Source of the DNA: an uncultured bacterium | GTDB lineage: Bacteria; Patescibacteriota; Minisyncoccia; Phycocordibacterales; GWA1-40-21 | Assembly: GCA_903850545.1 (NCBI GenBank) | Contig: CAINLW010000011.1 | Location: 1-37,263 of the forward strand | Length of the DNA: 37,263 bases | Direction: 5' to 3' | Position numbers and translations under genes: made by a program | Shown: piece after piece, positions 7,329 to 33,762 of the stretch | Layout: each line of letters begins with the position of its first letter | Position numbering within the stretch: position 1 is the stretch's first letter | The notes under the pieces: generated by a model | What the model was told of the DNA's origin: nothing | Seen by the model: only the letters and a program-made list of their open reading frames with translations | Databases searched by the model: none

Positions 7329-7343
7329 AAAAATTGAAAACGC

Positions 7344-7374: not shown

Positions 7375-7404
7375 GTATTACTTTAGGTCCGATCTCGAAC
7401 AAAG

Positions 7405-7640: not shown

Positions 7641-7657
7641 AACAACAAAAACCTATT

Positions 7658-8290: not shown

Positions 8291-8302
8291 AGAATTATCT
8301 TT

Positions 8303-9442: not shown

Positions 9443-9642
9443 AATATTAATATGTTAATTTTATTAAATACAATGCTTTTCGACGTTCTAAAATATTGAT
9501 GATTTGTATACATCGTTTGCTGATAGAACTAGGCAAATTAAAACACGGATATTGACGTCTGTGTAGTAATGTACATTTTATATGCCAATATACCTATAAT
9601 AATAAGGATTATTTCATATTAAGTTAATTCTGCCCGTTCACG

Positions 9643-9670
9643 TTGACAAAATCTTATGGTTTGATAGTAT
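9643..9670 (+). promoter_or_regulatory. Promoter of TrmB 2, likely leaderless
   Basis: TTGACA (9643-9648), 16-nt spacer, TAGTAT (9665-9670). The ATG at 9677 lies 6 nt after the -10 box, where transcription would start, and there is no Shine-Dalgarno sequence. Confidence 0.7.
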
Positions 9671-9676
9671 TACAGT

Positions 9677-10480
9677 ATGGAAATACAAAACAAAGATCTC
9701 CTTCAAAAATTAAACAGATCAGGATTTACTGATAAAGAATCGCTAGTTTATGTTTCATTATTGGAACTTGGTGGTGCCTATCCTTCCAGAATCGCTCAGT
9801 ACTGTAACCTTCGTCGCTCTACTGTCTATAATATTTTATTGTCACTTTCTGTGCGCGGAATTGTAAACGAAATTGAGAAGAAAAATAAAAGTTTTTATCA
9901 AATTGAAAATCCTGAAAAGATAAAACGTTATGTAAATAATAAATTACAGCAAGTTAAGGATACCGCTGATAATCTCGATAAGGTCATACCGGAAATATTT
10001 AGTTTGTATAACATTGGATCAAATAGCCCAAAAGTTACATATTACTCCGGCAGAGAAAACCTTTTGTCGATATATGATGATATGGTTGCTTATAAAAAAC
10101 CTTACGAGATGTTATCTTTCACTAGTGCTGAAAAGTTTTCTTATATTATGAAAAAAAACGACGCTGATAAATATTTTAAGGCTAAACAGAAAATTGGAAT
10201 CACAACAAGAACAATTGTTCCTGATACTAAGGAAAATAGAATGGTAATAGCTAAGATCTGTGAAAATATAGATAAAAAATACTGGCCAAATTCTAGGTTT
10301 GTAGAAGAAAAAACTTTTCCTTCAGTAACAGAAACTGTTATTTATTCACCAAACAAAGTAGCAATTATTAATCTTGATGAAAAGAGTCCAACAGGAGTGA
10401 TTATTGAGGATCCGGCCATTCACAATATGATGAAAGCAATCTTTGAATTGTCTTGGAACTCTAGGTCAGTGAAAGAATAA
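9677..10480 (+). CDS. TrmB-family winged-helix regulator 2
   Basis: 267 residues. Winged helix at about 10-75 (KLNRSGFTDKESLVYVSLLE, then a recognition helix with RIAQYCNLRRSTVYNIL), a coiled linker rich in Lys/Glu/Gln (about 90-110), and a TrmB-type effector half starting KVTYYSGRENLLSIYDDM. It is closely similar to regulator 3 along the whole length, more so than to regulator 1. The DNA-binding half and the C-terminal ELSWNS are nearly shared, which indicates recent duplication. It is divergent from SBP 2, its likely target. Confidence 0.87.
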   Translation: MEIQNKDLLQKLNRSGFTDKESLVYVSLLELGGAYPSRIAQYCNLRRSTVYNILLSLSVRGIVNEIEKKNKSFYQIENPEKIKRYVNNKLQQVKDTADNLDKVIPEIFSLYNIGSNSPKVTYYSGRENLLSIYDDMVAYKKPYEMLSFTSAEKFSYIMKKNDADKYFKAKQKIGITTRTIVPDTKENRMVIAKICENIDKKYWPNSRFVEEKTFPSVTETVIYSPNKVAIINLDEKSPTGVIIEDPAIHNMMKAIFELSWNSRSVKE

Positions 10481-10486
10481 ACACAA

Positions 10487-10510
10487 AAGCGGCGCCATTA
10501 GGCGCCGCTT
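10487..10510. terminator. Bidirectional terminator between TrmB 2 and SBP 3
   Basis: AAGCGGCGCC (10487-10496), loop ATTA, GGCGCCGCTT (10501-10510). The genes on both sides end here. It is almost the same hairpin as at 7344-7374, as expected if the SBP/TrmB unit was duplicated. Confidence 0.75.
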
Positions 10511-10521
10511 ATTTTATAATC

Positions 10522-11658
10522 CTACATTTTTACGAATTTTCTATCCTCAATTGTTTTGATTTCAAAGTCCCTTACTATGTTTTTGTTTTCATCAAACGTT
10601 ATATTACCGCTAACACCTGGGTAATTCTTGCTTGATAAAATGTTTTTTGTTACACACTTTGTATCATTTCCACATTTTGAAATGGCCAAATCGTATAATT
10701 TCAAAGCGTCAAATCCGACAAATGAGTAGAAATTAGGCTCTGTTTTGAACTTTTCCTCGAAATTGGCTATGAAGTCCTTTGTTTCTTTTCTAGTCAAATC
10801 TATTTTTGGGTAAACGTAGATGACTCCATTCGCACCATCCCCTGCCATACTCAAGAATGTTGGGTCTTCGATTTCAAACTGACCAAATATCTTGATTTCT
10901 TTGTCTAACGTTCTGATCTGCTTTACTATTGAACCGTTTTGGAAATTTAAACCGACCACGTAGACAGCATCTGCACCAGAATTTTTTAGTTTTGTAATTT
11001 GTGTTCTGAAATCTTTGTCGGTAATACTAAATTTTTCATTGAACACAACTTTTCCGCCGAGTTCAGTAAATTTATCTTCGAATCCTTTTCCATGATTGAA
11101 TGCCCATTCCTGATCCCACATAAGAAGACCAACTTTCTTTACGTTCAATTTATCAAACGCGTATTCAGCCATAAAACCTGCTTCTGCATGAATGTCTGTT
11201 GCAAGTCCTGGAATACCGTACTCACCTGATGTTTGAATAAACGAGGGCGTTACAGCGCTTGTGTGCATAAATGAAACCTCGCTTTGATTAAATGTTCCGG
11301 CAACAGCTTGATATGGACCAGCACACAAGGGACCAATTACAAATTTAATATTGTCTATATTAATGAATTTTTGTGCGATTGTTTGCGCCGCTGCAAGATC
11401 TGAACATTTGTCATCCTCATAAACTAGAGCAATATTGTTTCTCAAATTACTGTTTGCTAACTCCAAACCTCGAGTGATATATTCTCCAAGTTCAGGAGCT
11501 GCACCAGTCAATGGAGCAATAACTCCAATCTTAATTGGTGTATTTAAAACCGTAACTTCTAGATTATTATTTCTATTAAGCCCACTAAACCCGACTATCA
11601 TTATTATCAATATACCTAAAATAACTATTGATGATATTATTATGTTTCTATTTTCCAT
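10522..11658 (-). CDS. Liv-type ABC transporter substrate-binding protein (SBP 3)
   Basis: 378 residues, same family as SBP 1 and 2. An N-terminal hydrophobic anchor (about 6-25) without a lipobox Cys, then TPIKIGVIAPLTGAAPELGE, a VYEDDKCSD segment, GPLCAGPYQAVAG in the ligand-binding lobe and a C-terminal GVSGNITFDENKNIV. Several Cys pairs, such as ISKCGNDTKCV near the end, are also present in SBP 2 and suggest extracytoplasmic disulphides. It is divergent from TrmB-like regulator 3. Confidence 0.9.
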   Translation of the reverse strand: MENRNIIISSIVILGILIIMIVGFSGLNRNNNLEVTVLNTPIKIGVIAPLTGAAPELGEYITRGLELANSNLRNNIALVYEDDKCSDLAAAQTIAQKFINIDNIKFVIGPLCAGPYQAVAGTFNQSEVSFMHTSAVTPSFIQTSGEYGIPGLATDIHAEAGFMAEYAFDKLNVKKVGLLMWDQEWAFNHGKGFEDKFTELGGKVVFNEKFSITDKDFRTQITKLKNSGADAVYVVGLNFQNGSIVKQIRTLDKEIKIFGQFEIEDPTFLSMAGDGANGVIYVYPKIDLTRKETKDFIANFEEKFKTEPNFYSFVGFDALKLYDLAISKCGNDTKCVTKNILSSKNYPGVSGNITFDENKNIVRDFEIKTIEDRKFVKM

Positions 11659-11870
11659 ATGTTTTATTTTTTAACTGTTAAATTAATATTTACCGACTTA
11701 TAGACTAATTAGTAAATATCTGGCATAATCATATACCAATAGCACCATCCTGTGTTTTCCAAATGACATGTCCGACACAAATTAACCTTATTTTAGAAGG
11801 ATATATTAAGATATTTAATTATGTTGTCGGTCTAATTTGACAAGTAGCACGTATTTGCTACAATGGTTCT
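11659..11870. promoter_or_regulatory. Divergent control region between SBP 3 and TrmB-like regulator 3
   Basis: Rightward promoter: TTGACA (11837-11842), 16-nt spacer, TACAAT (11859-11864), then 6 nt to the ATG. This is the same geometry as TrmB 2 and is again leaderless. CCGACA (11772-11777) and TGTCGG (11825-11830) form an inverted pair as at the first SBP/TrmB unit; the second half lies just upstream of the -35 box. Confidence 0.55.
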
Positions 11871-12674
11871 ATGCAAATAAAAGACACATCATTGGTTAGA
11901 AAATTAGAAAAAACAGGCTTCACTGACAAGGAAGCTTTGGTGTATGTTTCGCTACTAGAACTTGAAGGTGCCTTCCCTTCTAAAATTGCAAAATACAGCG
12001 GTATAAAAAGAGCTACCACATATAATATCCTGGCAACCCTGGCTATCCGTGGATTGATAAATGAAATAGTAAAAGAAAACAAACTTTTTTATCAAATAGA
12101 GAAACCGGAAAAGATTTTAAGATATACTCAAAACCAAATTGATAAAGCGCTGGGAGCAATGGATGGCGCAAAGAAATTGATACCCGAAATCAATAATGTG
12201 TTTAATTTGCTTAAAAATCATTCTAGGGTGACATACTATGAAGGAATTACGGGTCTTTCCTCTATGTATGAAGATATGATAAATGTAAAAAAACCCTACG
12301 AAATGTTTGCTTTTTCTAGAGCTAATGACATCATGAGAGTGCTTCCAGAGAAATTTATAAAAGAATATATAAAAAGAAAAATGGAGCTTAGTATAACAAC
12401 AAGAATGTTTGTTCCAGACACCAACGAGAACAGGCGACATTTGGCAATCTACCCAAAAAATACCCCGGAGAGATTATATCCAAAACTTAAATATGTCGCG
12501 CTTGATAAATTTGATTTTAATGGAGAGATAGTAATATACGGCGAATCAAAAATTGCCATAACAAACCTAAGTGGAGATAAATTAATAGGGGTAATAATAG
12601 AAGATGAAATACTAAACAAAATGATTCGTGTGATATTTGAGCTATCTTGGAATTCTCCACTAGTGAAGGAATAA
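11871..12674 (+). CDS. TrmB-family winged-helix regulator 3
   Basis: 267 residues, a close paralogue of regulator 2. Winged helix with KLEKTGFTDKEALVYVSLLE and the helix KIAKYSGIKRATTYNIL, linker coil, and an effector half beginning RVTYYEGITGLSSMYEDM. The end ELSWNSPLVKE parallels ELSWNSRSVKE of regulator 2. It starts at the ATG 6 nt past the -10 box. The likely target is the divergent SBP 3 gene; a role for all the regulators in shared control of livGMH is possible but not shown. Confidence 0.87.
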   Translation: MQIKDTSLVRKLEKTGFTDKEALVYVSLLELEGAFPSKIAKYSGIKRATTYNILATLAIRGLINEIVKENKLFYQIEKPEKILRYTQNQIDKALGAMDGAKKLIPEINNVFNLLKNHSRVTYYEGITGLSSMYEDMINVKKPYEMFAFSRANDIMRVLPEKFIKEYIKRKMELSITTRMFVPDTNENRRHLAIYPKNTPERLYPKLKYVALDKFDFNGEIVIYGESKIAITNLSGDKLIGVIIEDEILNKMIRVIFELSWNSPLVKE

Positions 12675-12688
12675 ACAAGAGACATTAC

Positions 12689-12725
12689 AAAAAGCGGGTT
12701 TTGGCAGAGCCAAAACCCGCTTTTT
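12689..12725. terminator. Strong bidirectional terminator
   Basis: A 17-bp stem: AAAAAGCGGGTTTTGGC (12689-12705), AGA loop, GCCAAAACCCGCTTTTT (12709-12725). It separates TrmB 3 (rightward) from the end of livG (leftward). Confidence 0.9.
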
Positions 12726-12757
12726 GTATTTCCTTATACTTATACTAATCCCTCATA

Positions 12758-13507
12758 CTATTTCCCCAAATATATTCTCAAAACCTCAGGGTTATTGCGG
12801 ATTTCTTCAGGGGTACCGGTAACAATAATTTTACCTGCATCCATAACAATAACTTTATCAGAAATACCAAGTGTAAATGACATATCATGTTCAATGAGCA
12901 AAATTGTTTCTCCGTCTTTTTTCATTTGTAAAATAATCTTCGCAATGTCGTCGCGAATCTTTGGATTTACTCCTGCTACCGGCTCATCTAAAACTAAAAC
13001 TGTGTGATAATTTAAAATATTTCTTGCAAGCTCAACAAGCCTTTTTTGACCAAAACTCAATTCCCCCGCTGTTAGATGTGTGATTTCATTCAAACCAAAA
13101 TCATTTAAAATTTTAGTGGCCTTTTCTGTCTTACTTTTATCAAACCTATTTAAACCACAAATATTTTTCCAAAACTTTTGGTCTTCATTATCTTCTGCGA
13201 CCAAAAGATTTTCTAGAACAGTTAAGTTCTTAAATAATCTTGATTGTTGAAAGAGTCTTGAGATACCAAGATTAGAAATCTTCTCTACGGACATTCCTAC
13301 AATATTTCTATCACCAGTATTTGTTGAAAAAATAATCTTGCCATCGTCTGGTTCAACAACCCCACAAATGAGATTGAACATTGTGGTCTTTCCTGAACCG
13401 TTTGGTCCAATGAGAGCAGTTATCTTTCCTTTTTCAACTCCAAATGAGCAATCATTGACTGCTTTAATCCCCGAAAAATGTTTTTTAAGATTATTTATTT
13501 TAAGCAT
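12758..13507 (-). CDS. livG: Liv-type ABC transporter ATP-binding protein LivG
   Basis: 249 residues. It is the second ATPase of the Liv importer, pairing with LivF. Walker A GPNGSGKT (34-41), Q-loop RLFQQSRLF (84-92), signature LSFGQ (150-154), Walker B LVLDEP (171-176), switch His207 in IEHDM. The RLFQQ and PVAGVNP forms are typical of LivG. The start ATG is 1 nt past the livM stop, so the genes are translationally coupled in the order livH, livM, livG. Confidence 0.94.
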   Translation of the reverse strand: MLKINNLKKHFSGIKAVNDCSFGVEKGKITALIGPNGSGKTTMFNLICGVVEPDDGKIIFSTNTGDRNIVGMSVEKISNLGISRLFQQSRLFKNLTVLENLLVAEDNEDQKFWKNICGLNRFDKSKTEKATKILNDFGLNEITHLTAGELSFGQKRLVELARNILNYHTVLVLDEPVAGVNPKIRDDIAKIILQMKKDGETILLIEHDMSFTLGISDKVIVMDAGKIIVTGTPEEIRNNPEVLRIYLGK

Positions 13508-13508
13508 A

Positions 13509-14381
13509 TTATTCCAAGTCTAATTTACCGTAAAAACCTCGTGGCTTGTAGTAGAGAATTATCAGTAAAATTAATGCGTAAACTATCTGTCTAGCTGGAC
13601 CAACAATAGACGAGGAGAAACCGATAAAACGAAGTGGTTCTGGTAGAAGAATAATTAAAAATGTAGCAAGTAGTGTGCCTGGGAGAGAACCTAAACCACC
13701 AATTATTATAATGAGGATGATTGGAATTATTCCTGAGAAAGTAAATGACGATGGGTCAATAAAAGTAATATAGGAAGCATAGAGACACCCTGCGATGCCA
13801 GCAAAGAATGCTGAAGTGGCTAGAGTGATACACTTTACTCTGAACGTGCTTTTGCCTAGAGACTTTGCTGAAAGCTCGTCATCACGTATGGCTTCAATGA
13901 CTTTGCCAAATGGTGAAGAAACAATTCTGTTAATGAAAAAGTAACAAATAAAAACTACCGCAAATACAAGAATCATATAAACAAAGTTCTCATTGGTATC
14001 AAAACCAAATATTGTTAGGCGTGGAATACCAGGAATACCAAGAGGACCACGAGTTAATTCAGTCCAATTTATAAGAACTGCGTATGTTACAAAAGAAAAA
14101 CCCAAAGTTATAAGTGATAAATAATCTCCCCTCAATTTACGTATGGCAATAGCTGACATCCAACCAAAAAATGCGGACAATAAACCAGCAGATAAAACAC
14201 AAATCCAAAAGTTAACTCCTTGAAAAAGTAAAAGCGTGTAAGTGTAAGCACCTATTCCAAAGTATGCTATGTGTCCTAAATTTAAAAGTCCACCATACCC
14301 AACAGAGAGCTGTAGTGAGATTGCCAAAATTGCGTATATTCCAATCAGTATTAAAAGATGTATAAAATAGGCGCTAATCAT
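13509..14381 (-). CDS. livM: Liv-type ABC transporter permease LivM
   Basis: 290 residues, a polytopic membrane protein with about eight or nine hydrophobic segments. Family hallmarks: SVGYGGLLNLGHIAYFGIGAY near residue 27, SPFGKVIEAIRDDELSAKSLG (cytoplasmic coupling loop for the ATPase, near 175-195), and a final GFYGKL. With LivH it forms the translocation channel. It is preceded by an array of ATTCGTA-type repeats that ends a few bases before its ATG. Confidence 0.93.
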   Translation of the reverse strand: MISAYFIHLLILIGIYAILAISLQLSVGYGGLLNLGHIAYFGIGAYTYTLLLFQGVNFWICVLSAGLLSAFFGWMSAIAIRKLRGDYLSLITLGFSFVTYAVLINWTELTRGPLGIPGIPRLTIFGFDTNENFVYMILVFAVVFICYFFINRIVSSPFGKVIEAIRDDELSAKSLGKSTFRVKCITLATSAFFAGIAGCLYASYITFIDPSSFTFSGIIPIILIIIIGGLGSLPGTLLATFLIILLPEPLRFIGFSSSIVGPARQIVYALILLIILYYKPRGFYGKLDLE

Positions 14382-14385
14382 TATA

Positions 14386-14485
14386 ATATACGAAAATTAT
14401 GCGAATGATACGAATGGCTACGAATAATTGCAAAATACGAAAATTGTACGAATGTTAACGAATGGCTGCGAATAATACAATTCGG
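14386..14485 (-). repeat. ATTCGTA repeat array upstream of livM
   Basis: On the - strand the motif ATTCGTA (with ATTCGCA and ATTCGTT variants) recurs roughly every 10 nt in two clusters, including ATTCGTAGCCATTCGTA. Related arrays lie at 17019-17040 and 20487-20530. The livM ATG follows directly. Confidence 0.65.
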
Positions 14486-14520
14486 TTTGTTAATTATTAT
14501 CATTTTTTTGTTTTTTAGTT

Positions 14521-14550
14521 GTCATTGCGAGCGAAGCGTGGCAATCCAGG
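14521..14550. repeat. REP-like palindromic repeat
   Basis: GTCATTGCGAGCGAAGCGTG followed by GCAATCCAGG; ATTGC and GCAAT are the outer arms. The frame GTCATT...ATCYAGG is shared with 19454-19480. Similar GTCATTGCGAGCGAAGC sequences are widely scattered in many bacterial genomes. Confidence 0.6.
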
Positions 14551-14560
14551 TTCATTGAGT

Positions 14561-14607
14561 TTTTGAAGGGGAACCCTTAAGAATTCGGAAAGGGTTCCCC
14601 TTCAAAA
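14561..14607. repeat. 18-bp perfect hairpin just after the livH stop
   Basis: Arms 14561-14578 and 14590-14607 are perfectly complementary, with an 11-nt loop. It begins TTTTGAAGGGG and ends CCCCTTCAAAA, so there is no U-run after the stem on either strand. It lies between livH and livM and may protect the upstream mRNA or attenuate read-through, rather than terminate. Confidence 0.7.
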
Positions 14608-15486
14608 CTATTTTGTATTGTATTTAATTCCCAAAATACCATTTGGACGGAAAAGTAAGAATAAGAAAAGAAGTACAAAGGCAATGGCATCTTTATAGCC
14701 AGAAGGTAAATACCAGATACCAAAGTTTTCTGCAAAACCGAGTAAGAACGCACCGAGAATAGCTCCTGGGACACTTCCAAGACCTCCAATAACTGCCGCC
14801 GTGAAACCTTTTATCATTAAACCTGTTCCCATACTAGGCTCGATATTTTGTTCCAGAGAAATAAGAATGGCAGCGACTCCAGCAACCATAGAGCCAATGA
14901 CAAATGACCATGAATAAATCCTACTTGCGGAAATACCGACAATTTCAGCAACTTCAACATTGTCAGAAACAGCTCTCATTGCCTTCCCTATTCTGGTCTT
15001 TTTCATAAACAGATAAAAGAAAACAAAAAGAATAATTGAAGAAATTATTATAACAATTTGTAATGGTGTAATAATTGCTCCATAAAAAGAAAGTCCTTGA
15101 ACATTATCAATATAATCTATCGTCTGCACATTCGCTCCGAAAATTATAAGCATAAATGACTCAAGTAAAATAAGCACACCAAGACTTGCGATAAGCAAAA
15201 TTGAATTGCTCGCCTTTCTTTTTCTAAAAGGTTCATAAATAATTAGATTGATTAAATAACCAACAAGACCAGCAAGAATGACAGCTAGAATACAAGAAAG
15301 ATAAAATTCTAGGTGTAGTAGCGAAAAGAGAAAATAGAAAATATAAGATGAGGCGACAATCACGCCACCGTGAGCAAAGTGAATAAACTTATTAGTAGAA
15401 TAGATAAGAGAAAAACCGCAGGCTATTAAAGAATATATGGCACCTGCTATCAAACTATTGATTACTAATTGTAGAAATATGTCCAT
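14608..15486 (-). CDS. livH: Liv-type ABC transporter permease LivH
   Basis: 292 residues with about eight transmembrane segments. Family hallmarks: LIAGAIYSLIACGFSLIYST near the start, FAHGG (residues 37-41), the coupling-loop motif TRIGKAMRAVSDNVEVAEIVG (about 166-186), GGLGSVPGAILGA and a final LFRPNGILG. It forms the channel with LivM and is the first gene of livH-livM-livG. 226 nt with repeats separate it from livM, a wider gap than is usual inside this operon. Confidence 0.93.
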   Translation of the reverse strand: MDIFLQLVINSLIAGAIYSLIACGFSLIYSTNKFIHFAHGGVIVASSYIFYFLFSLLHLEFYLSCILAVILAGLVGYLINLIIYEPFRKRKASNSILLIASLGVLILLESFMLIIFGANVQTIDYIDNVQGLSFYGAIITPLQIVIIISSIILFVFFYLFMKKTRIGKAMRAVSDNVEVAEIVGISASRIYSWSFVIGSMVAGVAAILISLEQNIEPSMGTGLMIKGFTAAVIGGLGSVPGAILGAFLLGFAENFGIWYLPSGYKDAIAFVLLFLFLLFRPNGILGIKYNTK

Positions 15487-15982: not shown

Positions 15983-16046
15983 CTATCCACTCCGACGATT
16001 TTGTCGGAGAGCCGACCATGAGCGTCGGCTTTGAACTACGAGGGCA
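15983..16046 (-). repeat. Second copy of the tRNA-Arg 5' end, split by a hairpin insert
   Basis: 16 nt (16031-16046) are identical to the tRNA 5' end (15920-15935). The next 7 nt of the tRNA, read CTATCCA on the + strand, occur at 15983-15989. Between them are 41 nt forming two hairpins: CTCCGAC/GTCGGAG (15990-15996/16003-16009) and AGCCGAC/GTCGGCT (16010-16016/16024-16030). The match to the tRNA then ends, so this is a fragment and not a functional tRNA. Confidence 0.65.
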
Positions 16047-19443: not shown

Positions 19444-19453
19444 TGTGTTTGTG

Positions 19454-19480
19454 TCATTCCCGCGGAGGCGGGAATCTAGG
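19454..19480. repeat. REP-like palindrome GTCATTCCCGC
   Basis: ATTCCCGC (19456-19463), GGAG loop, GCGGGAAT (19468-19475), then CTAGG. Same frame as 14521-14550. Confidence 0.65.
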
Positions 19481-19541
19481 TTAATTTAATTTCTTATTAA
19501 TAGCCATTTATATCATTCGTTCCATTCATATATTTGTATAT

Positions 19542-20339
19542 TTAATTGAGTTTTGTTCCTTCTTTTATAAATTCTGGCACTTCCATAAGTGCGAGTTTAT
19601 CATCAGTATGTGCAGCAAGTATCATTCCATTACTTAAAAGTCCCATAAGGGGTCTAGGTTCGAGGTTTGTAACAAACACTACCTTTTTTCCAATAAGAAT
19701 CTTTGAATCAGTAAAATATTTTGCTATTCCAGAAATTATTTGTCTTGGTTCTGTTTCTAGAAAATCCACAGACAATTTGTAAAGTTTGTCAGAACCTGCT
19801 ATCGCCTCTACAGAAAGTATTTTTCCAACCTTCATTTCAACTTTACTAAAATCATCATAAGTAATTTTTAAATTCACTTTTGGGAGAATTTCACCGCGAG
19901 ATGGTAATCCATTTTTCGCGGCTCTTTGCTCTTTACTTTCCCTGTCTCGAGCTTGTCGAGAGATTTCTTTATCCATAAAGGTTTGCAATATGATAGACGC
20001 CGCAGAAGCATCGAGCATATCTGTCTTGCCAAAGGTTTTTTCAACCTGCATTGATGTCATAAACTCAGGTTCTAGAAAAATTGGAAGTTTAACAATAGAA
20101 GACAATTCTCTTTTAAAAGAAATTATTTTGGGACTTATTTTATTATCTCCACCCTTATAATCTTTTGATTCGCCAATAACAACGGCTTCAACTTTAGATT
20201 CATTTATTAAATCAGATATCTTTTGCATCAAATCAGTGTTATTTTCCAATACAATTTTTGGAAAAGCTACTTTTCCCTCAACATCAGAAATGGCTATTCC
20301 AACTCTTTTTTCTCCATAATCTATTCCTAAATATTTCAT
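19542..20339 (-). CDS. RuvX (YqgF) domain fused to a MetG-type tRNA-binding domain
   Basis: 265 residues in two parts. Residues 1-125 are a YqgF/RuvX RNase H-like fold: YLGIDYGEKRVGIAISD with Asp7, VVIGES (54-59), EPEFMTS (90-96) and DASAASIILQTFMD with Asp110. Residues 156-265 are an OB-fold tRNA-binding domain as in the C-terminus or beta subunit of MetRS: FSKVEMKVGKI, AGSDKLYKLSVDF, RQIISGIAKY, NLEPRPLMGLLSNGMILAA. The linker (about 126-150, RQARDRESKEQR) is polar and is encoded by two palindromic segments. RuvX proteins process Holliday junctions or rRNA precursors; the tRNA-binding half may redirect the enzyme to RNA. I know of no standard fusion of these two. Confidence 0.88.
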   Translation of the reverse strand: MKYLGIDYGEKRVGIAISDVEGKVAFPKIVLENNTDLMQKISDLINESKVEAVVIGESKDYKGGDNKISPKIISFKRELSSIVKLPIFLEPEFMTSMQVEKTFGKTDMLDASAASIILQTFMDKEISRQARDRESKEQRAAKNGLPSRGEILPKVNLKITYDDFSKVEMKVGKILSVEAIAGSDKLYKLSVDFLETEPRQIISGIAKYFTDSKILIGKKVVFVTNLEPRPLMGLLSNGMILAAHTDDKLALMEVPEFIKEGTKLN

Positions 20340-22362: not shown

Positions 22363-23922
22363 TTAATTACTTTTCAAGATTTTAACTATACCACTATTTG
22401 CATCAACCTCAATCAAATCACCATCTTTTATAACTTTTGTTGCTATTTTTGTTCCTACAACACACGGTTTTTTCATTTCCCTACTAACAATTGCAGCATG
22501 ACTTATAACCCCACCAAAATCTGTAACAAATGCAGATGCTTTTTTCATCGCCAATATCAAATCAGGATTGGTAGCAGATGAAACTAACACTTCACCTTCT
22601 TTTATTTTAGAAATGTCTTTTGTTGTAAGGACAATTTTTGCTATTCCTGTAACTTTTCCTGAATAAGCGACCATTCCTTTTATTTCTTTGGCATCAGTGT
22701 CTATCTTTTCATTAATTATATGATTTGAAATTATTTCTTTAGCTTCATTTCCTTGATAAACTTTAGTTTTGCCTTCTTCTGTAATAGCAACACAATACTC
22801 CATTCTTTGTTTAACGACATTAGAAAAATCTTTATTATTAACCAAAACTTCTTCAATTTCCTCTTGGGTTAAATATTTAACTTCATCAAAGGTTAGTTTT
22901 GTTCTTTTTGTAATTTCAATAATAATTGGGTCCATAGAAACATAAGATTTTTGATAAATACCTTTTCTATGATCTTTTAAAAACATAAAAAAGGCAGACA
23001 CTTCAAAAAGATATTTTAATTCACCTGGTAGTTTAATTGAGCTTAAAATTTCTTTTTTCTCTTGTTTTAATTCTGTATAATGATTTTTTATATTATTTAT
23101 TTGTATTTCAATACTATTTTTTTGCTTTAATGAATCGCTCATAAGCTTTATAACATCCGTCTCACTCATCACTGGACCAATATATGCATAAGTAAGCCAT
23201 GCAAACTTTTTTGCATGATTTTTTATTGCATTATAAATGGCAGGGTTCTCTTTCATTTTCAAAACAAATTCACTTATATTGTTTCGCAATAGCTCAATAT
23301 AATTTGAATCAAGTTTTTTTATTTTCTCAACTAGCATAAGTCTTGCTAATTCCTCATTTTGGACTTCACTTTTCTTTTCACTTGAACTCAAAACAGAATA
23401 ATACTCTGCAAACTTATCTCCTTTATTAGTTTGTTGCAAAAACTGTTTAAATTTTTCTTGTATATAATTAGATAAAAATGGTATTTCCATACCATCAAGT
23501 AATGGTGGAACCCAGCCCCACGCTCTCATTATTCTTAATTTTTTGCCATATTCATTATAAATCTCAACAAGTTTTTTGTTAGACAAACCACTGTATTTAA
23601 GTTGGCCTACTTTATTACAAAAATCCGTGAGTTGCTTTCCTGTACTTAAAATGTTTTTTTCAACTTTTTTGTAAAATTTTTTGTCTTTTTTTACTTTTTC
23701 AAATAAAAATTTTCCTATTTCATTACCCCTATCAGTATCAATGTATGAATACAAATATCCTTTTTTAAATTCCAAAATTGTTTTCTCGATTTTCATGCCA
23801 AAAATCTTTTCTATATCATCAGTAAGACATTGCTCAGCAAAATACCAAGGGTAAAGATATATTCTATCTCTGTCAAAAAACAACTTGAGTTTATTTTGTT
23901 TAATAATATTTTTCATTTTCAT
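22363..23922 (-). CDS. Swivel-domain (PEP-utilising enzyme mobile domain) protein A
   Basis: 519 residues. Residues about 435-519 are the phosphohistidine swivel domain: EVLVSSATNPDLILAMKKA, GGVISHAAIVSRE with His475 as the putative phosphorylated residue, then DGDLIEVDANSGIVKI. The rest is helical and includes a DHRKGIY...EITKRTKLTFDE segment (about 325-355). This recalls the RE-x-x-R helix and following G/D..L region in the middle domain of rifampin phosphotransferase-like proteins. A Y.GNEAKEII hairpin comes just before the swivel. No ATP-grasp and no PEP-binding barrel, so it cannot charge its own His from ATP or PEP by known chemistry. The middle domain may hold the phosphate acceptor. 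Confidence 0.85.
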   Translation of the reverse strand: MKMKNIIKQNKLKLFFDRDRIYLYPWYFAEQCLTDDIEKIFGMKIEKTILEFKKGYLYSYIDTDRGNEIGKFLFEKVKKDKKFYKKVEKNILSTGKQLTDFCNKVGQLKYSGLSNKKLVEIYNEYGKKLRIMRAWGWVPPLLDGMEIPFLSNYIQEKFKQFLQQTNKGDKFAEYYSVLSSSEKKSEVQNEELARLMLVEKIKKLDSNYIELLRNNISEFVLKMKENPAIYNAIKNHAKKFAWLTYAYIGPVMSETDVIKLMSDSLKQKNSIEIQINNIKNHYTELKQEKKEILSSIKLPGELKYLFEVSAFFMFLKDHRKGIYQKSYVSMDPIIIEITKRTKLTFDEVKYLTQEEIEEVLVNNKDFSNVVKQRMEYCVAITEEGKTKVYQGNEAKEIISNHIINEKIDTDAKEIKGMVAYSGKVTGIAKIVLTTKDISKIKEGEVLVSSATNPDLILAMKKASAFVTDFGGVISHAAIVSREMKKPCVVGTKIATKVIKDGDLIEVDANSGIVKILKSN

Positions 23923-23925
23923 GTT

Positions 23926-24213
23926 TTAGTTATTATTAATAATTCTCACTATACCACTATCCGCATCAACTTCAACTAAATCTCCATCTTGCAAGATTTG
24001 CGTCGCATTTTTCGTTCCGATAATACAAGGTATATTAAGTTCTCTAGAAACAATCGCAGCATGGCAAGTAATTCCACCCTCATCAGTAACAAAAGCAAAC
24101 GCCTTTATCATTGCAGAAATAAATGACGGAAATGTCATTTACGTCACAAGAATATCTCCGGCCAGCATCCATGGATCTTTGTCGTGTAATAATTTAGACG
24201 TTTTCTTATTCAT
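23926..24213 (-). pseudogene. Stand-alone swivel domain with an in-frame stop
   Basis: From an ATG at 24213 the frame encodes MNKKTSKLLHDKDPWMLAGD and ILVT, then TAA (24141-24139), then MTFPSFISAM and a complete swivel core with GGITCHAAIVSRE. The homologous spot in the 1159-aa protein reads ILVTQMTFPSF, so a CAA to TAA change explains the stop. A 70-residue piece could still start at the Met after it, but would lack the first strands. The stop at 24217 of the upstream gene is 3 nt away, so this is an operon member. It has no helical middle domain, unlike all its neighbours. The C-terminal half resembles the first swivel of the 1159-aa protein and the N-terminal half its second swivel. Confidence 0.75.
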
Positions 24214-24216
24214 ATT

Positions 24217-25155
24217 TTACTCGCTTAAATCTTTTATAAATTTTCTTGCTTGTTTATCATCACCTATTTCGCCAATTTTTCTAAAAGTTCCCTTACCGAA
24301 GGTTTTATCGATAAGCCTGCCCAGTTCTAATAAATCGCCATTAAAATGGCTCCTTCTAAAAATTTCTTTAATTTCGCTTTCGGATTGAAATTTATCTTGA
24401 TTTTTAGCGTACAATTTATTACAAAGCACATCAATCAGCCTCATACTTTCTCCGTAAGAAAAAGTATCCCAATAACTTCCGTCTTTATTTATATAAAAAG
24501 TATTTTCATCAAGAGGCGTAGGACTGCCAAAAGCGTCCATTGAAGCGTTATAATTTCCCCTGGCTTTGTTCGTTCTAGATTCAATATCGTTTTGAAACTC
24601 CAAATATTCTTTTTTTAATATCTCGTTATTGGCCAGGGCTTCATCCAACGCGTTCTTGGTTAAATCCTGCGTTATACCCTCTTCTAAATATGAAAAATAA
24701 CGTTCTCGGCCGCTTCTTGAGCGTACAATTAAACCTCCCCTATAGACGGCTAAAAATTTATCTTCATCACCTTCTCCTTTTATGACTTGAAACGCTAAAT
24801 ATGATTTATAATGCATTATTTCATGCAATAATTTGGCAAAATTCGGGATTATGTATTTAGTGTCTTTTATACTGATAAAACCGCTATAGGGGAAAGTTAT
24901 CGCGTCCGCATCAATATCTTCTTCTGGCCAGTCGCGTTCTTTTACCATGAATATTTGCTCAGGCAATATGTCCCTGTCTTCCTTGTCGTATTTATTTCTT
25001 AGCTCATTAGTAATTGTATTAATGTAATTTATCAGTTTAACCTCTTCGTCGGTTTTTTCTCTTTGTATTTTTTCAAATTTTTTTAAATCTTTTTGTACTG
25101 AATCATTAAAGTCTTCTTTTTTAAGATTGTCATACAGTTTATCAAATCTTTCCAT
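24217..25155 (-). CDS. Putative zinc metallopeptidase-like protein (HExxH)
   Basis: 312 residues, no signal peptide. HEIMH (111-115) is a zinc-binding HExxH motif, preceded by the hydrophobic FAKLL helix and followed by EEGITQD (158-164), where a third metal ligand Glu could lie as in gluzincins. This ligand is inference. The N-terminal 60 residues are a charged coil. The closest family is not recognised. It is set inside the swivel-domain array, with gaps of 3 and 4 nt, so it is co-transcribed with it. It may process a partner in the system or a peptide product. It is the only non-swivel gene on the - strand between 22.4 and 37.2 kb. Confidence 0.7.
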   Translation of the reverse strand: MERFDKLYDNLKKEDFNDSVQKDLKKFEKIQREKTDEEVKLINYINTITNELRNKYDKEDRDILPEQIFMVKERDWPEEDIDADAITFPYSGFISIKDTKYIIPNFAKLLHEIMHYKSYLAFQVIKGEGDEDKFLAVYRGGLIVRSRSGRERYFSYLEEGITQDLTKNALDEALANNEILKKEYLEFQNDIESRTNKARGNYNASMDAFGSPTPLDENTFYINKDGSYWDTFSYGESMRLIDVLCNKLYAKNQDKFQSESEIKEIFRRSHFNGDLLELGRLIDKTFGKGTFRKIGEIGDDKQARKFIKDLSE

Positions 25156-25159
25156 AAAA

Positions 25160-26620
25160 TTATTTTTTTATTTTAATTATGCCTCTATCCGCATCCACTT
25201 CCACCAAATCTCCGTCTTTCAAAACTCGCGTGGCGTTTTTTGTACCAATTATACACGGCTTATGAATTTCGCGCGAGACAATCGCAGCGTGACACAACAA
25301 CCCACCCTCGTCAGTTATTATTGCCAAGCTTTTTTCCATAATTGGAACAAAATTGGGATTTGTCATTTGGGTTACAAGTATTTCTCCATTTACAAATTCA
25401 TTGATTTGGTCAAGACTTTTAATAACCCTGACTCGGCCAACTATTCTTTCATTTGATTTTACTGCAACCGCACCTCTTATTTCCCTTATAGTATTACTCA
25501 CAATCTCAACGGGGATCTGTTTTTTTCTGTAGTCTTCCAGCTCCTTTCCTATAAAAATAATTGATATTCCATTTTCGAATATAATAGCGTGGTCTTTCAG
25601 ACGCATTGTTAATTCTTCTGCCGGGGCAACAAGTTTCTTGTTCAAGATACTGTTCTTTATTTCTTCAAATCTCATAGAAACCAACTGCTCGTAGCTTATC
25701 CCCAACCTATGCGCAATTTCGTAGAACATTCCCATTAAATGATGAACGTAATAACTAGAAACCTCATCTGCCAAGTTCATCACAAAACTAGATTTTCTTG
25801 CGGAATTTATTGCTCTCTCATTATATGCAGAAAGTTTATAATCAGAATATTTGATAACGACAGGTTTTAGGTTTGCGATTTCTTTGTCTATAAAATCTTC
25901 GCCCTTTTGCAATAGATCTTCAAAGCGGTTTTTAATCTCGTCAAAAGTAAACCCGTTGCCCCAGTAGTAATATCTTTTGAGAAAAGCATATTTTTCATGG
26001 TGTTTTTTTAATGCTTTTATATCAACCTTTTTTGATAAAAAATATTTCTTTGCTATTTTTAACAGTGAAAGTTTTTCTTCTCCTATCATAGTCAAACTAA
26101 CTGGAGAAGTTAGATATTTCATTAAATTATCGTTCAGCTTTCCAGAATTTCTTAGATTTTTAACTAATTTTTCAACAAATATGTCGTTAAAGAAAAAATA
26201 ATAAGCATAAACAAAACCACCATTCCAAAGTTTTGCTTGAAAATCAAATCCTTTTTCCAAAACTTTTAATAATTGCCCGTCACTCATATCCCCCCACTTA
26301 GAACTTTTTAATCTATCCGTCCATTTAATAATTTCTTTTGCGTATCTTTCCATAATCCCTGTAATTTTTGAAAACACCTCTGGATCAAATTTAGCTTTCT
26401 TTTCGAGAATTTTAACTATTTTTTTATAATCACTTATTCCAATAGATCGTTTACTATCAAACTGCCTATAATTTTTAATCCTATAATTTTGATTATATAT
26501 TTTTTTAGCATAGTCTCTTTTTATTCCCTCGCCTACTGAATCTATCCACAAAATTGCATGGGGCTTGCCTCTTTTTGAAACATCAAACCATTCTCTTTTT
26601 GTTAATTTGTTTAAATTCAT
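25160..26620 (-). CDS. Swivel-domain protein B
   Basis: 486 residues. C-terminal swivel domain (about 395-486) with GEILVTQMTNPNFVPIMEK, GGLLCHAAIVSRE (putative phospho-His444), and DGDLVEVDADRGIIKI. The N-terminal 390 residues are mostly helical, start NKLTKREWFDVSKRGKPHA, and contain a hairpin FENGISIIFIGKEL before the swivel, as in protein A. The W-x-x...RG.P near the N-terminus recurs in other members as W..KR..P or W.....P. No ATP-grasp. It sits in tight spacing with the metallopeptidase-like gene. Confidence 0.85.
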   Translation of the reverse strand: MNLNKLTKREWFDVSKRGKPHAILWIDSVGEGIKRDYAKKIYNQNYRIKNYRQFDSKRSIGISDYKKIVKILEKKAKFDPEVFSKITGIMERYAKEIIKWTDRLKSSKWGDMSDGQLLKVLEKGFDFQAKLWNGGFVYAYYFFFNDIFVEKLVKNLRNSGKLNDNLMKYLTSPVSLTMIGEEKLSLLKIAKKYFLSKKVDIKALKKHHEKYAFLKRYYYWGNGFTFDEIKNRFEDLLQKGEDFIDKEIANLKPVVIKYSDYKLSAYNERAINSARKSSFVMNLADEVSSYYVHHLMGMFYEIAHRLGISYEQLVSMRFEEIKNSILNKKLVAPAEELTMRLKDHAIIFENGISIIFIGKELEDYRKKQIPVEIVSNTIREIRGAVAVKSNERIVGRVRVIKSLDQINEFVNGEILVTQMTNPNFVPIMEKSLAIITDEGGLLCHAAIVSREIHKPCIIGTKNATRVLKDGDLVEVDADRGIIKIKK

Positions 26621-26646
26621 CTTTAAAATTTTAGTAACAATTTTAC

Positions 26647-28113
26647 TTAAGCTTTTTTTATTATTTTTACCAAACCATGATCAGCGTTAACATCAATCAA
26701 ATCTCCATCTTTTATAGATCTTGAAGCTATTTGGGTACCAGTAATACATGGAATATTCAATTCTCTAGAAACAATTGCAGCATGACAAGTAATACCGCCT
26801 TCATCAGTAACTATAGCAGAAGCCATCTTCATAATTGATACATATTCTGGACGCGTCATTGAAGCAACTATTACATCGCCATTTTCCATTTTCGAAAAAT
26901 CACTTTGATTCAAAATAATTTTGGCTGTGCCAATCGCTTTACCAGGGGAAGCTGTTGTTCCCTTTATTTCAGATGCGGTAATTGTTTTTTCTATAATATC
27001 AAAATATTCTTTTGCGATTGAACCTGAAAACGTTTTTGGTTCTGTTGTTTTTTGAGAAAAAGAAACTAATCCTTCTTTCCTTTTTTTAATTTCTGATAAC
27101 ACCTTATCATCTTTTTTTATAACTGACATAATTTCATTATGAAGTGAGTATTTCAAAAGCTCAGTATCGATTCCCAGCTCATCAGATATCTTTTCAATTA
27201 TTTTTATCAATATATAGTTACTAATTTGATTGTATTTTTTTCTATCATCACGATAAGAAGTAACCCAATTAAAAAAATTTAGATATTCGATAGATTTTTC
27301 GTTTAGTTTATATTTTCCTATCAAAAGAGTCTTATTTTTCTTTGTTTCTTCAAACTTTTTCAAGCCGTTTAATAAAATTCCTACTTCAGATGAATTATTC
27401 AACAATTTATTCAGAATTTCATAAAAATATTTTTCATCTAAACATTCTACTTTTTCATAATCATTTTTTAACCAATAATAATTATTAGAATGATCCTTTA
27501 TCATTTTTTTAACTTTTAATGAATCTGATCCTTCTTTTTTGGCAATTTCATATATCTTTAAAATATCTTTTTGTTCTTCTTGGAAAATAGATAATTTATC
27601 TGGGCTCAACAAAACATTAAGATCCTTTTTGTCTATTTTTTCTTTATTAGAATCAAAAATAAAATCGATTATTTGACTCTCAAATGGGTCAAGTAAATCA
27701 ACAAACAATGAATTTTCCCAGAATTTCATTGAACATTCTAAAAATCTTTCATATTTCTTTGTAAATTTGATTGACGTAACTTTTTCATCCAAAATATCTA
27801 GACCTATTTTTTCCATTTTTCTAGCGGATGGATAAAAATCTTTCTTTAGTTTCTCAAAAAATCCGTCGTTGTCTTCTAAATGTTTAAACATCTTTTCGAC
27901 TTCTTTCAGAGTCAAATAATAATCAAAATAATGATAAAAAATTAAGCCGTTGTTTGATTTTAAACAAATTAGCACATCATTTGGAAAATATAATCCACAT
28001 TTTTTATAAATTCTTTTAGATATAACAAAAAGTGGCACTTCTATACATAAAGGAATTCCTGCACCAGACTGTTTATACCACTTTATTGATTCGACTTGTT
28101 TTTTTGTAAGCAT
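26647..28113 (-). CDS. Swivel-domain protein C
   Basis: 488 residues. Swivel domain about 400-488: GDVIVASMTRPEYVSIMKMA, GGITCHAAIVSRE (His444), DGDLIDVNADHGLVKI. The middle region is helical and carries YRDDRKKYNQISNYI followed by GIDTELLKYSL, the same R-K plus hydrophobic helix plus L-x-Y pattern as in proteins A, D, E and the 1159-aa protein. It begins TKKQVESIKWYKQSGAGIPLC, parallel to the W-x-x start of B. No nucleotide-binding domain. 26 nt upstream of protein B and 11 nt downstream of the winged-helix member. Confidence 0.85.
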   Translation of the reverse strand: MLTKKQVESIKWYKQSGAGIPLCIEVPLFVISKRIYKKCGLYFPNDVLICLKSNNGLIFYHYFDYYLTLKEVEKMFKHLEDNDGFFEKLKKDFYPSARKMEKIGLDILDEKVTSIKFTKKYERFLECSMKFWENSLFVDLLDPFESQIIDFIFDSNKEKIDKKDLNVLLSPDKLSIFQEEQKDILKIYEIAKKEGSDSLKVKKMIKDHSNNYYWLKNDYEKVECLDEKYFYEILNKLLNNSSEVGILLNGLKKFEETKKNKTLLIGKYKLNEKSIEYLNFFNWVTSYRDDRKKYNQISNYILIKIIEKISDELGIDTELLKYSLHNEIMSVIKKDDKVLSEIKKRKEGLVSFSQKTTEPKTFSGSIAKEYFDIIEKTITASEIKGTTASPGKAIGTAKIILNQSDFSKMENGDVIVASMTRPEYVSIMKMASAIVTDEGGITCHAAIVSRELNIPCITGTQIASRSIKDGDLIDVNADHGLVKIIKKA

Positions 28114-28124
28114 CTTTTATATTT

Positions 28125-29999
28125 TTATCTAACAATTTTTACTATACCCCTATCCGCATCAACCTCCACCAAATCCCCGTCTTTCAAAACTTGTGTGGCG
28201 ATTTTGGTAGCAATAACGCAAGGACGTCTCATTTCTCTTGCAACAATAGCAGCATGCGATGTAACTCCGCCTTGATCGGTCACAAAGGCAGCAGCTTTTT
28301 TCATTGCAGGAAGAAGGTCAGGTTGAGTAGAAATTGAAACTAATATGTCTCCTTCATTCACTTTAACCATATCTGAGATTACATTGACAATTTTAACATA
28401 CCCTTTTGCATGACCACGACAACCACATTGACCGTGTAATTCAAGAACTCCTAATTCTTCTTTTTTATAAATATATTTTTCAACAATTCTTTTTGCTTCA
28501 TCACCACTAAAATATTCTTCTTCATTTTTGGTCGTATAATAAAGACAATATTCAACACGTTTCTTTATTTCATTTTGGTCAACAATGTTATGAAAAAGTG
28601 CATTCTTTATCTCGGAAGATTTCATAAATCTTAATTCTTTTAATGTCACACCAATTCTTGAAGCGATTTCTTCTAAGAAAAAGGTAGTTTTGTAAAGTGC
28701 GAAAAGCTGAGCGTAACGACGATCGATTTTTGTAATCATAAAATCTCCCCAAGCAGAGAAAAATCTTATATTATCTTTTGATAAATCCAATTTTTTAATC
28801 AAGTTTAAGCGTTCCTTTTTCTTTTTTTCAACATCTTTTTCTCTTTCTTTTAGTGACGCTTCTAAACTTTCTTCACCATTTACATTACGTACCAATTCTT
28901 TAAGATAATGCTCGAAACTATAAACACCCTGTTCTTCAGTGTAAAGATATTTTGTATAATAATATTTATGATAATGTTCCTCTATTTTTGTCATAATCTC
29001 GGGAATAATTTTATTTTTGATAGTTCTAACAATTTCTGAAAATTTTTCTTCGTATTCTTTACTGTGAGTATATAAACCAAAAAATTTCACGTCTTCTTCT
29101 TTGAATTTTCTAAACAATTCTTTGAAAACGGCAAGTTGTTCCTTGTTTTTTTGAACCATAATACCAATCTTGGTTAGATTGTCTTGTTCTTCTTGTAACA
29201 AAGATGATTTTTCTGGTTCTGTGAGAAGTGATAGATACTCCTCAATTTTATCATCTTTAACCCCCATATCTTTTAAGATTTTCTTTCCTCTGTTTGTTAA
29301 ATTATTACCAAACATATCGGCAGCAGCAGGAATCCAACCGTAACGATAATAGTCTGTATGTATATCCTCATGATCCTGATGATATTTCCAAAGAGTTTCT
29401 TTGTTTTGCTTGTCTAAACCACTCTCAGGAATTTTTTTAGAAAAAGTATTTAGTTTGTCAGCAAAAAATCTTATTTTTGTATTTACGTCTTCCATGAAAT
29501 TCAAATCATTTAGGAATTTGTCAACCAAATGTTCTCCGATCTCATATGTATCTTGTTTATCATAATAAAACCAAAGGTGATAATCTTGATAAATGCTGGC
29601 CAAATACTTATAAGCTCTGCCACCAGGGTGTACAAATTGATTTGTAAAACAACGAAAAGGAATCGACATAAACCAAGGATTAGCATTAACGATTTCTTCA
29701 GCCATAAGCCATTCTCTTTTAAAAATTGTATCAATATTCTGTTCATGACTCTTTGACAATAGGGCTTTGAGCTCTGGCAAAACTTTATAGTTGGAGTTTA
29801 AAGAATAATATTTTTTATTACCGACCTTTTCCCGCTTAATTATTTTTTCTTTTATTAAATCATCCAATTCACGAGAAACATTAGCGTCATTTTTACTTAT
29901 GGCGGTTGCGATTTCACTTAAATACAATTTTGATACTTTCGAACTATTAAACAACTCTAAAATTTCATAAGCTATTTGAGATTTAAATAAGTTTTTCAT
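28125..29999 (-). CDS. Winged-helix DNA-binding domain fused to a swivel-domain protein (D)
   Basis: 624 residues. Residues 1-80 are a winged helix of the ArsR/MarR-like type: SQIAYEILELF, LYLSEIATAISKNDANVSREL, DLIKEKIIKREKVGNKKYYSL. A long helical region follows with FMITKIDRRYAQLFALYKT and SRIGVTLKELRFM, then a YFSGDEAKRIV hairpin. The swivel is at about 535-624 with GGVTSHAAIVARE (His582) and DGDLVEVDADRGIVKI. It is the first gene after a strong promoter and heads the operon of proteins C, B, the metallopeptidase-like gene, the swivel pseudogene and A. A regulator whose DNA binding depends on phosphorylation of its own swivel, and which controls this operon, is the natural hypothesis. Confidence 0.87.
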   Translation of the reverse strand: MKNLFKSQIAYEILELFNSSKVSKLYLSEIATAISKNDANVSRELDDLIKEKIIKREKVGNKKYYSLNSNYKVLPELKALLSKSHEQNIDTIFKREWLMAEEIVNANPWFMSIPFRCFTNQFVHPGGRAYKYLASIYQDYHLWFYYDKQDTYEIGEHLVDKFLNDLNFMEDVNTKIRFFADKLNTFSKKIPESGLDKQNKETLWKYHQDHEDIHTDYYRYGWIPAAADMFGNNLTNRGKKILKDMGVKDDKIEEYLSLLTEPEKSSLLQEEQDNLTKIGIMVQKNKEQLAVFKELFRKFKEEDVKFFGLYTHSKEYEEKFSEIVRTIKNKIIPEIMTKIEEHYHKYYYTKYLYTEEQGVYSFEHYLKELVRNVNGEESLEASLKEREKDVEKKKKERLNLIKKLDLSKDNIRFFSAWGDFMITKIDRRYAQLFALYKTTFFLEEIASRIGVTLKELRFMKSSEIKNALFHNIVDQNEIKKRVEYCLYYTTKNEEEYFSGDEAKRIVEKYIYKKEELGVLELHGQCGCRGHAKGYVKIVNVISDMVKVNEGDILVSISTQPDLLPAMKKAAAFVTDQGGVTSHAAIVAREMRRPCVIATKIATQVLKDGDLVEVDADRGIVKIVR

Positions 30000-30033
30000 A
30001 TTTGTTTGTTAGGCAAATTACATTGCCATGCTA

Positions 30034-30062
30034 ATAATAAACCTAATACAATTTAATGTCAA
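30034..30062 (-). promoter_or_regulatory. Promoter of the winged-helix/swivel operon
   Basis: On the - strand TTGACA (30062-30057), 17-nt spacer, TATTAT (30039-30034); the ATG is at 29999, giving a leader of about 28 nt. Confidence 0.75.
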
Positions 30063-30103
30063 ATAATTAAATTCAGCCATATTTTAAGCGGTATAATTTT
30101 TAC

Positions 30104-30133
30104 TTGACAGGTAATATTATAGTATGCTATACT
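30104..30133 (+). promoter_or_regulatory. Promoter of the SixA-like phosphatase with an overlapping palindrome
   Basis: TTGACA (30104-30109), 18-nt spacer, TATACT (30128-30133). A near-perfect palindrome TATAGTATGCTATA (30118-30131) covers the spacer end and the -10 box, so it is a candidate operator. The gene also has a strong Shine-Dalgarno AGGAGG (30194-30199), 7 nt before ATG, which is rare in this window. Confidence 0.7.
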
Positions 30134-30206
30134 CTACTTAGGTAAGTTCGGAGCAACATCCTTGCTCTAGTAAACAAATGGGTGAACGGATATAGGAGGT
30201 TCTATT

Positions 30207-30806
30207 ATGAACCAGAGTGATGGAAAGACGGTTGTGGTGATATTTGCGCGGCACAGCATCGCGACGAAAGTTGCAAGCAAGCTGAGGACGCTGACGGTAG
30301 AAGGCATCTTGAAGTGCATCGCGGCAAGACACCTGTTGGCGGAAATAGTAGCCGCCGGAATAAAGGTCTTCTGCTCAAACGCACTCAGGGCACTGCAGAC
30401 GGCTCAGGTCTTGATCGGCGACTGCCCGAGAGAAATCACCGCGGTACCGGAGATGTTCGAACATCCCGAAGCCGAGATCAGCAAGGCTTGCGAACAACTG
30501 TTCGCCAAGTACGGCCTAAAAAATCTCAAGACATACATTGAGACAGGTGAGGCCGAAGCCCTGCTCAAGTACGGAAGCTCAGCGGCCGACGCACTAAAGA
30601 AAGCCATCGACGGGAAGTTCGACACAGATACTCTGATCGTGTCACACGCGCCGTTGTTGAACGCTATGGGGTATAACAACATGTTCCTGAAATGTGCAAA
30701 ATTCCAGGAAATAATGCTGACCCACAGCTTCAGCGAAGCGCAGATGCTGAAGGTCACAGTCGATGTCGAAACCCAGAATGTTCTCGACATCGAGTTCCTC
30801 AACTGA
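30207..30806 (+). CDS. Histidine phosphatase superfamily protein (SixA-like)
   Basis: 199 residues. Single-domain histidine phosphatase: ARHS with nucleophile His16, LTVEG (29-33), CSNALRALQTAQVL with Arg61, Glu85 in PEMFE, and SHAP with the second catalytic His147. The compact size and the RHS/SNALRA..TA pattern fit the SixA/phosphoglycerate mutase group. SixA removes phosphate from phosphohistidine in signalling proteins, which fits a gene lying among phosphohistidine swivel proteins, but a small-molecule substrate is equally possible from sequence. It is GC-richer than all neighbours, has its own promoter and SD, and is the only + strand gene between 20.8 kb and the window end. It was probably acquired into the array. 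Confidence 0.87.
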   Translation: MNQSDGKTVVVIFARHSIATKVASKLRTLTVEGILKCIAARHLLAEIVAAGIKVFCSNALRALQTAQVLIGDCPREITAVPEMFEHPEAEISKACEQLFAKYGLKNLKTYIETGEAEALLKYGSSAADALKKAIDGKFDTDTLIVSHAPLLNAMGYNNMFLKCAKFQEIMLTHSFSEAQMLKVTVDVETQNVLDIEFLN

Positions 30807-30848
30807 GAAACTCCCGCCCATAAGGTTACAATTTACCCATAAAATTGA

Positions 30849-30879
30849 CAGCCCCGCCAGGTCACACTGTGCTGGGCTG
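30849..30879 (+). terminator. Possible terminator after the phosphatase gene
   Basis: CAGCCC (30849-30854) and GGGCTG (30874-30879), with an inner CAC/GTG pair, then ATTTCATTT. The U-run is weak. Confidence 0.4.
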
Positions 30880-30882
30880 ATT

Positions 30883-32301: not shown

Positions 32302-32355
32302 AACGATTTTTTTACACTAACATAATTCTAGTCCCTATCAAAAAATTGTCCAGGT

Positions 32356-33750: not shown

Positions 33751-33762
33751 TTCATTATTTTA

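Follow-up and report, generated by a model that had tools for sequence, protein, structure and literature searches.

The linker of a fused ruvX gene contains a palindromic element that is a genuine dispersed repeat, beyond chance, and the present gene is very probably the product of two layered events: an old fusion by joining of neighbouring genes and a later in-frame entry of the element into the linker. Two questions are separated in this way, namely the origin of the RuvX fusion and the later growth of its linker. The gene lies in a window of 37,263 bases (the whole stretch of DNA that was analysed; 32.9% G+C), which is contig C11 of G000, a draft genome of 985 kb in 64 contigs with 97% completeness. 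Positions of the features are collected in Table 1.

Table 1. Features of the fused gene and its surroundings (positions in the window)
Feature	Position	Strand	Remarks
ruvX-trbD fusion gene (RuvX + tRNA-binding OB domain)	19542..20339	-	265 codons, uninterrupted, ATG to stop
RuvX/YqgF domain, residues 1-123	19971..20339	-	Pfam PF03652, E 1.1e-23; D7 and D110 conserved in alignment
tRNA_bind / MetRS-beta / Trbp111-type OB domain, residues 169-263	19551..19835	-	Pfam PF01588, E 1.1e-23
First palindrome, TCTCGA-5-TCGAGA	19945..19961	-	codes for SRQARD (residues 127-132); linker sequence of ancestral origin, no element
Second palindrome (palindromic element), coding strand CCGCGAAAAATGGATTACCATCTCGCGG	19894..19921	-	with flanks (19890-19922) encodes AAKNGLPSRGE, residues 140-150
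Stretch common to the LigA copy: element and 3' flank	19886..19921	-	89% over 36 bp
GTCATTCCCGCGGAGGCGGGAATC-type repeat	19448..19487	.	separate intergenic palindrome family, just downstream of the ruvX-trbD gene

The fused gene and its distribution

The preliminary description had proposed an in-frame fusion of RuvX with a tRNA-binding domain, and this is confirmed: a single open reading frame of 265 codons encodes both domains, each scoring above the cut-offs of its families. The RuvX half is above the cut-off for PF03652 and TIGR00250, and its residues D7 and D110 are invariant in all of the nine aligned fused proteins. The second half reaches 83.6 bits for PF01588 against a cut-off of 27 in a Pfam search with the fused protein, matches NCBIfam models for the MetRS C-terminal/beta type, and has MetRS-beta and Trbp111 proteins as the nearest solved structures. 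Both domains thus match known families, Trbp111/MetRS-beta and the stand-alone RuvX (YqgF), but unlike these stand-alone proteins they are placed here in one chain, as a recurrent fusion of operon neighbours. Probably, the fusion product is a functional RuvX that carries a predicted RNA-binding tail. YqgF acts in 16S rRNA maturation, and an RNA-binding tail on RuvX would be attractive in the light of this role.

From an alignment of nine fused proteins, AlphaFold modelled two folded domains with a helix at residues 109-144 (mean pLDDT 78.8, pTM 0.48). In the model of the fused protein, pLDDT falls below 50 only at 142-157; because this segment covers most of the inserted peptide at 140-150, the insert AAKNGLPSRGE is probably harmless to the protein. 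The linker, which extends between MDKE and KITYDDF, had been described as 25 residues encoded by two palindromes. Both repeats are indeed in the linker, but it is 32 residues long and only 11 of them (140-150) are derived from a genuine repeat.

A match was obtained in 91 of the 98 genomes searched. All of the five other genomes of the genus (G001-G005) and G007 (sister genus) have the fusion as one open frame, with identity of 68-74%; the linkers of these fused relatives are charged and consist of 17-28 residues, and no comparable hairpin was found in the linkers of any of the six. G028 and G018, which belong to other families of the order, are fused as well, and the two genes are separate but adjacent in the sister genus g2 (G006, G009, and G011). 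In the order as a whole, about 50 of the 72 genomes with both matches have the two genes fused or on one strand with at most 300 nt between them. The matches are within 300 nt on one strand in 36 genomes, and 17 more genomes show a single alignment across both, G064 among them being probably false with its second domain located elsewhere; in 11 genomes the two genes are far apart or on different contigs. Equal open-frame lengths from both halves make G008, G037, G066, G076, and G077 candidates for further fusions.

In a RuvX tree of 29 rows, seven fused rows of the family form one clade (support 100/98), and the tree requires three changes of fusion state. By their distribution and tree, ruvX and the tRNA-binding gene are neighbours across the order that have been fused at least three times, and the fusion predates the palindrome in the linker. 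ruvX was joined with an adjacent gene for a stand-alone MetRS-beta/Trbp111-like domain in the ancestor common to the genus and one sister genus, presumably through read-through.

The preliminary description had a different origin in mind, in which palindromic mini-elements landed between two formerly separate genes and welded them together; on this model, the stop codon would have been lost with the insertion. One mini-element is indeed present in the linker, and element and fusion junction coincide in the G000 species. However, six relatives that form one clade with the G000 gene are fused without palindromes, and fusions are also found elsewhere in the order (G028 and G018). Since fused relatives lack the palindromes, the palindromes were not the weld, and their role as the cause of the fusion is hardly credible. 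Indeed, the palindrome-free linkers of G001-G005 and G007 come close to the observation that the preliminary description itself had named as speaking against its proposal.

The two palindromes of the linker

Both inverted repeats reported earlier are present at their coordinates, and a genome search for them gave different results. The second (CCGCGA...TCGCGG) recurs, with four copies of its core, and the first (TCTCGA-5-TCGAGA) has one intact copy in the genome, so that the idea of linker palindromes as mini-elements applies to the second and fails for the first, which stays at chance level. The peptide SRQARD, coded by TCTCGACAAGCTCGAGA in the first palindrome, is ancestral linker, because fused relatives align SRQEKK, ARQEKK, or NRQEIK at the same place. 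In the whole genome, the pattern has 24 matches at up to two mismatches, fewer than the 44 of a reversed control, and its hairpin is weak (fold z-score -1.07). Perfect 6-bp inverted repeats with a loop of 3-22 are found 497 times in the window versus 398 times in Markov sequence, and at least one is present in 37% of its 75-nt stretches; the expected number of exact matches of the pattern in the window is zero, which is an unfair test because the pattern was picked after sighting. With a single intact copy, no excess of near-copies, a weak fold, and an ancestral alignment, the first palindrome was rejected as a mobile element.

The second palindrome forms a hairpin with a fold z-score of -3.65, and none of 200 shuffles is equally stable. 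Its core, AAAAATGGNNTACCATNTCG, has four exact copies in the genome, located in the RuvX linker, LigA, TopA, and a T-box-like leader; a whole-genome search allowing up to three mismatches returned these four at zero mismatches and a chance-like remainder. A BLAST search of the linker against the genome detected the LigA copy in C37 (36 bp, 89%, E 4.9e-7), the TopA copy in C35 (28 bp, 89%, E 4.7e-4), and, as a weaker match, the leader in C9 (20 bp, 95%, E 0.02). This leader, whose T-box match is itself weak (25.1 bits and E 0.0014, with the gathering score at 93), precedes two ORFs, a short one and one named by eye as aspartyl-tRNA synthetase-like. Compared with the G002 orthologues, LigA is longer by 33 nt and TopA by 36 nt with the frame intact, the relatives' LigA and TopA being devoid of the element; the LigA insert also sits at a gap against E. 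coli LigA (alignment only). The outer stem covaries, CCGCGA/TCGCGG versus CCACGA/TCGTGG. The element is open in all six frames, and all three coding copies (RuvX, LigA, and TopA) use one frame and code for the peptide (T/A)KNG(V/L)PSRG. AAKNGLPSRGE has no counterpart in the linkers of fused relatives.

A stable hairpin between two domains (z -3.65) might also be a product of chance or a selected mRNA structure, for example one causing a translation pause between the domains, with the likeness to LigA and TopA arising by convergence. This is very improbable in view of the 36-bp near-identity with the LigA loop insertion (E 4.9e-7), the clean gaps of 33 and 36 nt in the LigA and TopA orthologues, the one frame in all coding copies of the KNG(V/L)PSRG element, and the similar behaviour of a second palindrome family, PSQ(I/M)KSQFDG, described below.

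The layered history would then continue as follows. After the fusion, and in the G000 species, the palindromic element (about 28-36 bp) very probably entered the flexible linker in frame, with a gain of about 11 codons. Insertion is indicated by the occurrence of the element at other, unrelated sites; the empty ruvX site cannot be read base by base, as the relatives' linkers vary between 17 and 28 residues, and the exact edge in the linker is inferred because of these differences in length. Probably, selection retains copies whose hydrophilic peptide comes to lie in a loop or a linker and leaves the reading frame open; by alignment, the inserts of LigA, AlkD, and RNase HI are at loop-like gaps.

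Outside G000, none of the matches to the core in 396 relatives looks genuine: ten of the relatives have a match with at most one mismatch, without the outer stem, and these were rejected as true copies and taken as chance. Two GTDB matches, both to the same Pedobacter gene and without the outer stem, were rejected as well, and a search in viral contigs gave no match. No target-site duplication was identified at the element. The insertion sites are also occupied in sister species. In the LigA loop the inserts differ, G001 having TCATTGCGAGCGGAGCGTGGCAA and G007 an insert of the TTTGCGAGTGAAACGAAGCAATCC type. At the TopA site, G006 carries an insert of 24 residues; its palindrome is larger, codes for NGVPNRSE, and is possibly related to the KNG(V/L)PSRG element.

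Further palindrome families and RAYT-type transposases

Repeats were identified by self-comparison of the genome because de novo scanning of 391 kb for palindromes gave mainly terminator-like intergenic hairpins and spurious ORFs. In the second family, CCAGTCAAATRAAAAGYCAATTTGACGGG is found with up to three mismatches at 22 places in G000, at 10 in G004, and at one each in G002 and G003; a control sequence gave zero matches in this search. Ten of the 22 G000 copies are inside ORFs, all in one frame, with the peptide (P)SQ(I/M)KSQFDG or PGQIKSQFDG, and the hosts are RsmE, RecJ, AlkD (twice), ComEC (twice), RNase HI, a SpoU methylase, and two others. Further copies are outside long ORFs. Both inserts are missing from AlkD in the four orthologues found (G001, G003, G009, and G013), and the RNase HI copy is aligned opposite an 11-residue gap of E. 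coli RNase HI. In G004, UvrB and RNase HI have copies of this family, and in RNase HII of G002 the family is read from the opposite strand as LPRQIEFLFDWG. UvrB of G004 (L128) has a second REP-like insert, LDSRLHGND, beside the PSQIKSQFDG insert.

As peptide, frame, and orientation are all preserved, the inserts might have been spread as peptide modules by gene-to-gene recombination and not as moving palindromic DNA. The copies beyond long ORFs in the second family, the leader copy of the first, and the opposite-strand reading of LPRQIEFLFDWG in RNase HII of G002 make this improbable.

For the movement of palindromic DNA, a hairpin-recognising Y1/RAYT transposase would be a plausible agent. 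Y1_Tnp (RAYT-type) genes are found in G000 and in half of 20 relatives. A RAYT/Y1_Tnp-like gene (L122:7132-7856; G000:C13) is accompanied by exact copies of ACTTGGAAGCAAGGCTTCCAAGT, a 23-bp palindrome, on both sides and by a third copy inside in frame, an arrangement like that of the REPtrons in the literature. Such linkage of a palindrome with a Y1 transposase is seen for the ACTTGGAAGCAAGGCTTCCAAGT family; no transposase linked to the KNG(V/L)PSRG family of the RuvX linker was found. By analogy with REPtrons, hairpin transposition in G000 is plausible. Another transposase, IS200-like, adjoins a left half that appears Bacteroidota-like by eye in L159 (G000:C23), a contig that may be chimeric or a contaminant.

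Further palindromes were observed in GatB, MiaA, and two glycosyltransferases of G000. GatB (L118:16480-16530; G000:C55) contains the in-frame palindrome SKPTLLVGSPTGNVGED, whose relative is intergenic at 15985-16034 of the window. In a MiaA-like protein (L117:16739-16768; G000:C35), the palindrome TCCGCCCAAGGTGGATCCGCCTTGGGCGGA follows right after the P-loop region and codes for SAQGGSALGG. The glycosyltransferase genes (L120:4613-5968 and 6644-7759; G000:C64) carry REP-like inserts in frame, the former four and the latter one.

Comparison with known palindromic elements

Palindromes that code in frame have been called a peculiarity that recurs in Rickettsia; few other lineages were later found to have them. 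The Rickettsia palindromic elements (RPE) are palindromes of about 150 bp belonging to several families, which are inserted in frame in unrelated conserved genes, with one peptide recurring and non-coding sites occupied too (Ogata et al., 2000, 2002, as described in PMC10969869 and PMC3733652). The G000 palindromes are like RPE in that they are in frame in unrelated conserved genes, have a repeated peptide, form several families, and include non-coding copies. Dispersed near-identical copies are present at unrelated loci (4 core copies; 22 of the second family), in-frame inserts are missing from orthologues (LigA, TopA, and AlkD twice), and frame and peptide are shared in different hosts (KNG(V/L)PSRG in 3 of 3; the SQ(I/M)KSQFDG type in the ORF-borne copies of G000). 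They differ from RPE, by description and not by sequence, in a length of about 30 bp versus about 150 bp and in their host, a small-genome bacterium that resembles a patescibacterium in gene content and genome size, and the difference in length argues against membership in the long RPE families.

Protein-coding palindromes are also reported outside Rickettsia, in Wolbachia (WPE) and Methanocaldococcus (PMC2996958). These, compared by description only, resemble the G000 elements as in-frame coding palindromes, and the lineage of G000 differs. GTAG/CGTC-tagged REPs have intragenic copies in several species, many of them in replication/repair genes (PMC3733652). Similarly, the hosts here are RuvX, LigA, TopA, RecJ, AlkD, and RNase HI, together with UvrB in G004; judged from this list, they appear to lean to replication/repair genes. 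Unlike these REPs, the KNG(V/L)PSRG element is untagged, with neither GTAG nor CGTC at the ends of CC(A/G)CGAAAAATGGANTACCATCTCG(T/C)GG. No report of palindromic elements in coding genes of Patescibacteria or Parcubacteria was found in a limited literature search.

The KNG(V/L)PSRG, PSQ(I/M)KSQFDG, and ACTTGGAAGCAAGGCTTCCAAGT families are protein-coding palindromic elements of the kind described in Rickettsia and Wolbachia. Tentatively, an RPE-like process may be ongoing in small-genome, patescibacterium-like bacteria. Several palindrome families of unrelated sequence, perhaps mobilised by RAYT-type transposases, would enter the same insertion-tolerant loops of DNA replication/repair proteins again and again, with sister species carrying different palindromes at the LigA site and essential enzymes gaining peptide segments. 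Finding new families in another, very different reduced genome would mean that such insertion is a more general process, and the orthologues with and without inserts are material to study the tolerance of new peptide segments.

Two other regions of the window are worth recording. The genes at 3115-15486, named by eye, form a Liv-type ABC transporter cluster for branched-chain amino acids that includes three paralogues of the binding protein, which is unusual in so small a genome. At 22363-37242, six large proteins are encoded in a row, a local paralogue expansion, and have in common a C-terminal segment like a PEP-utilising mobile domain (HAAIVSRE...GTK.AT..LKDGDLVEVDAD).
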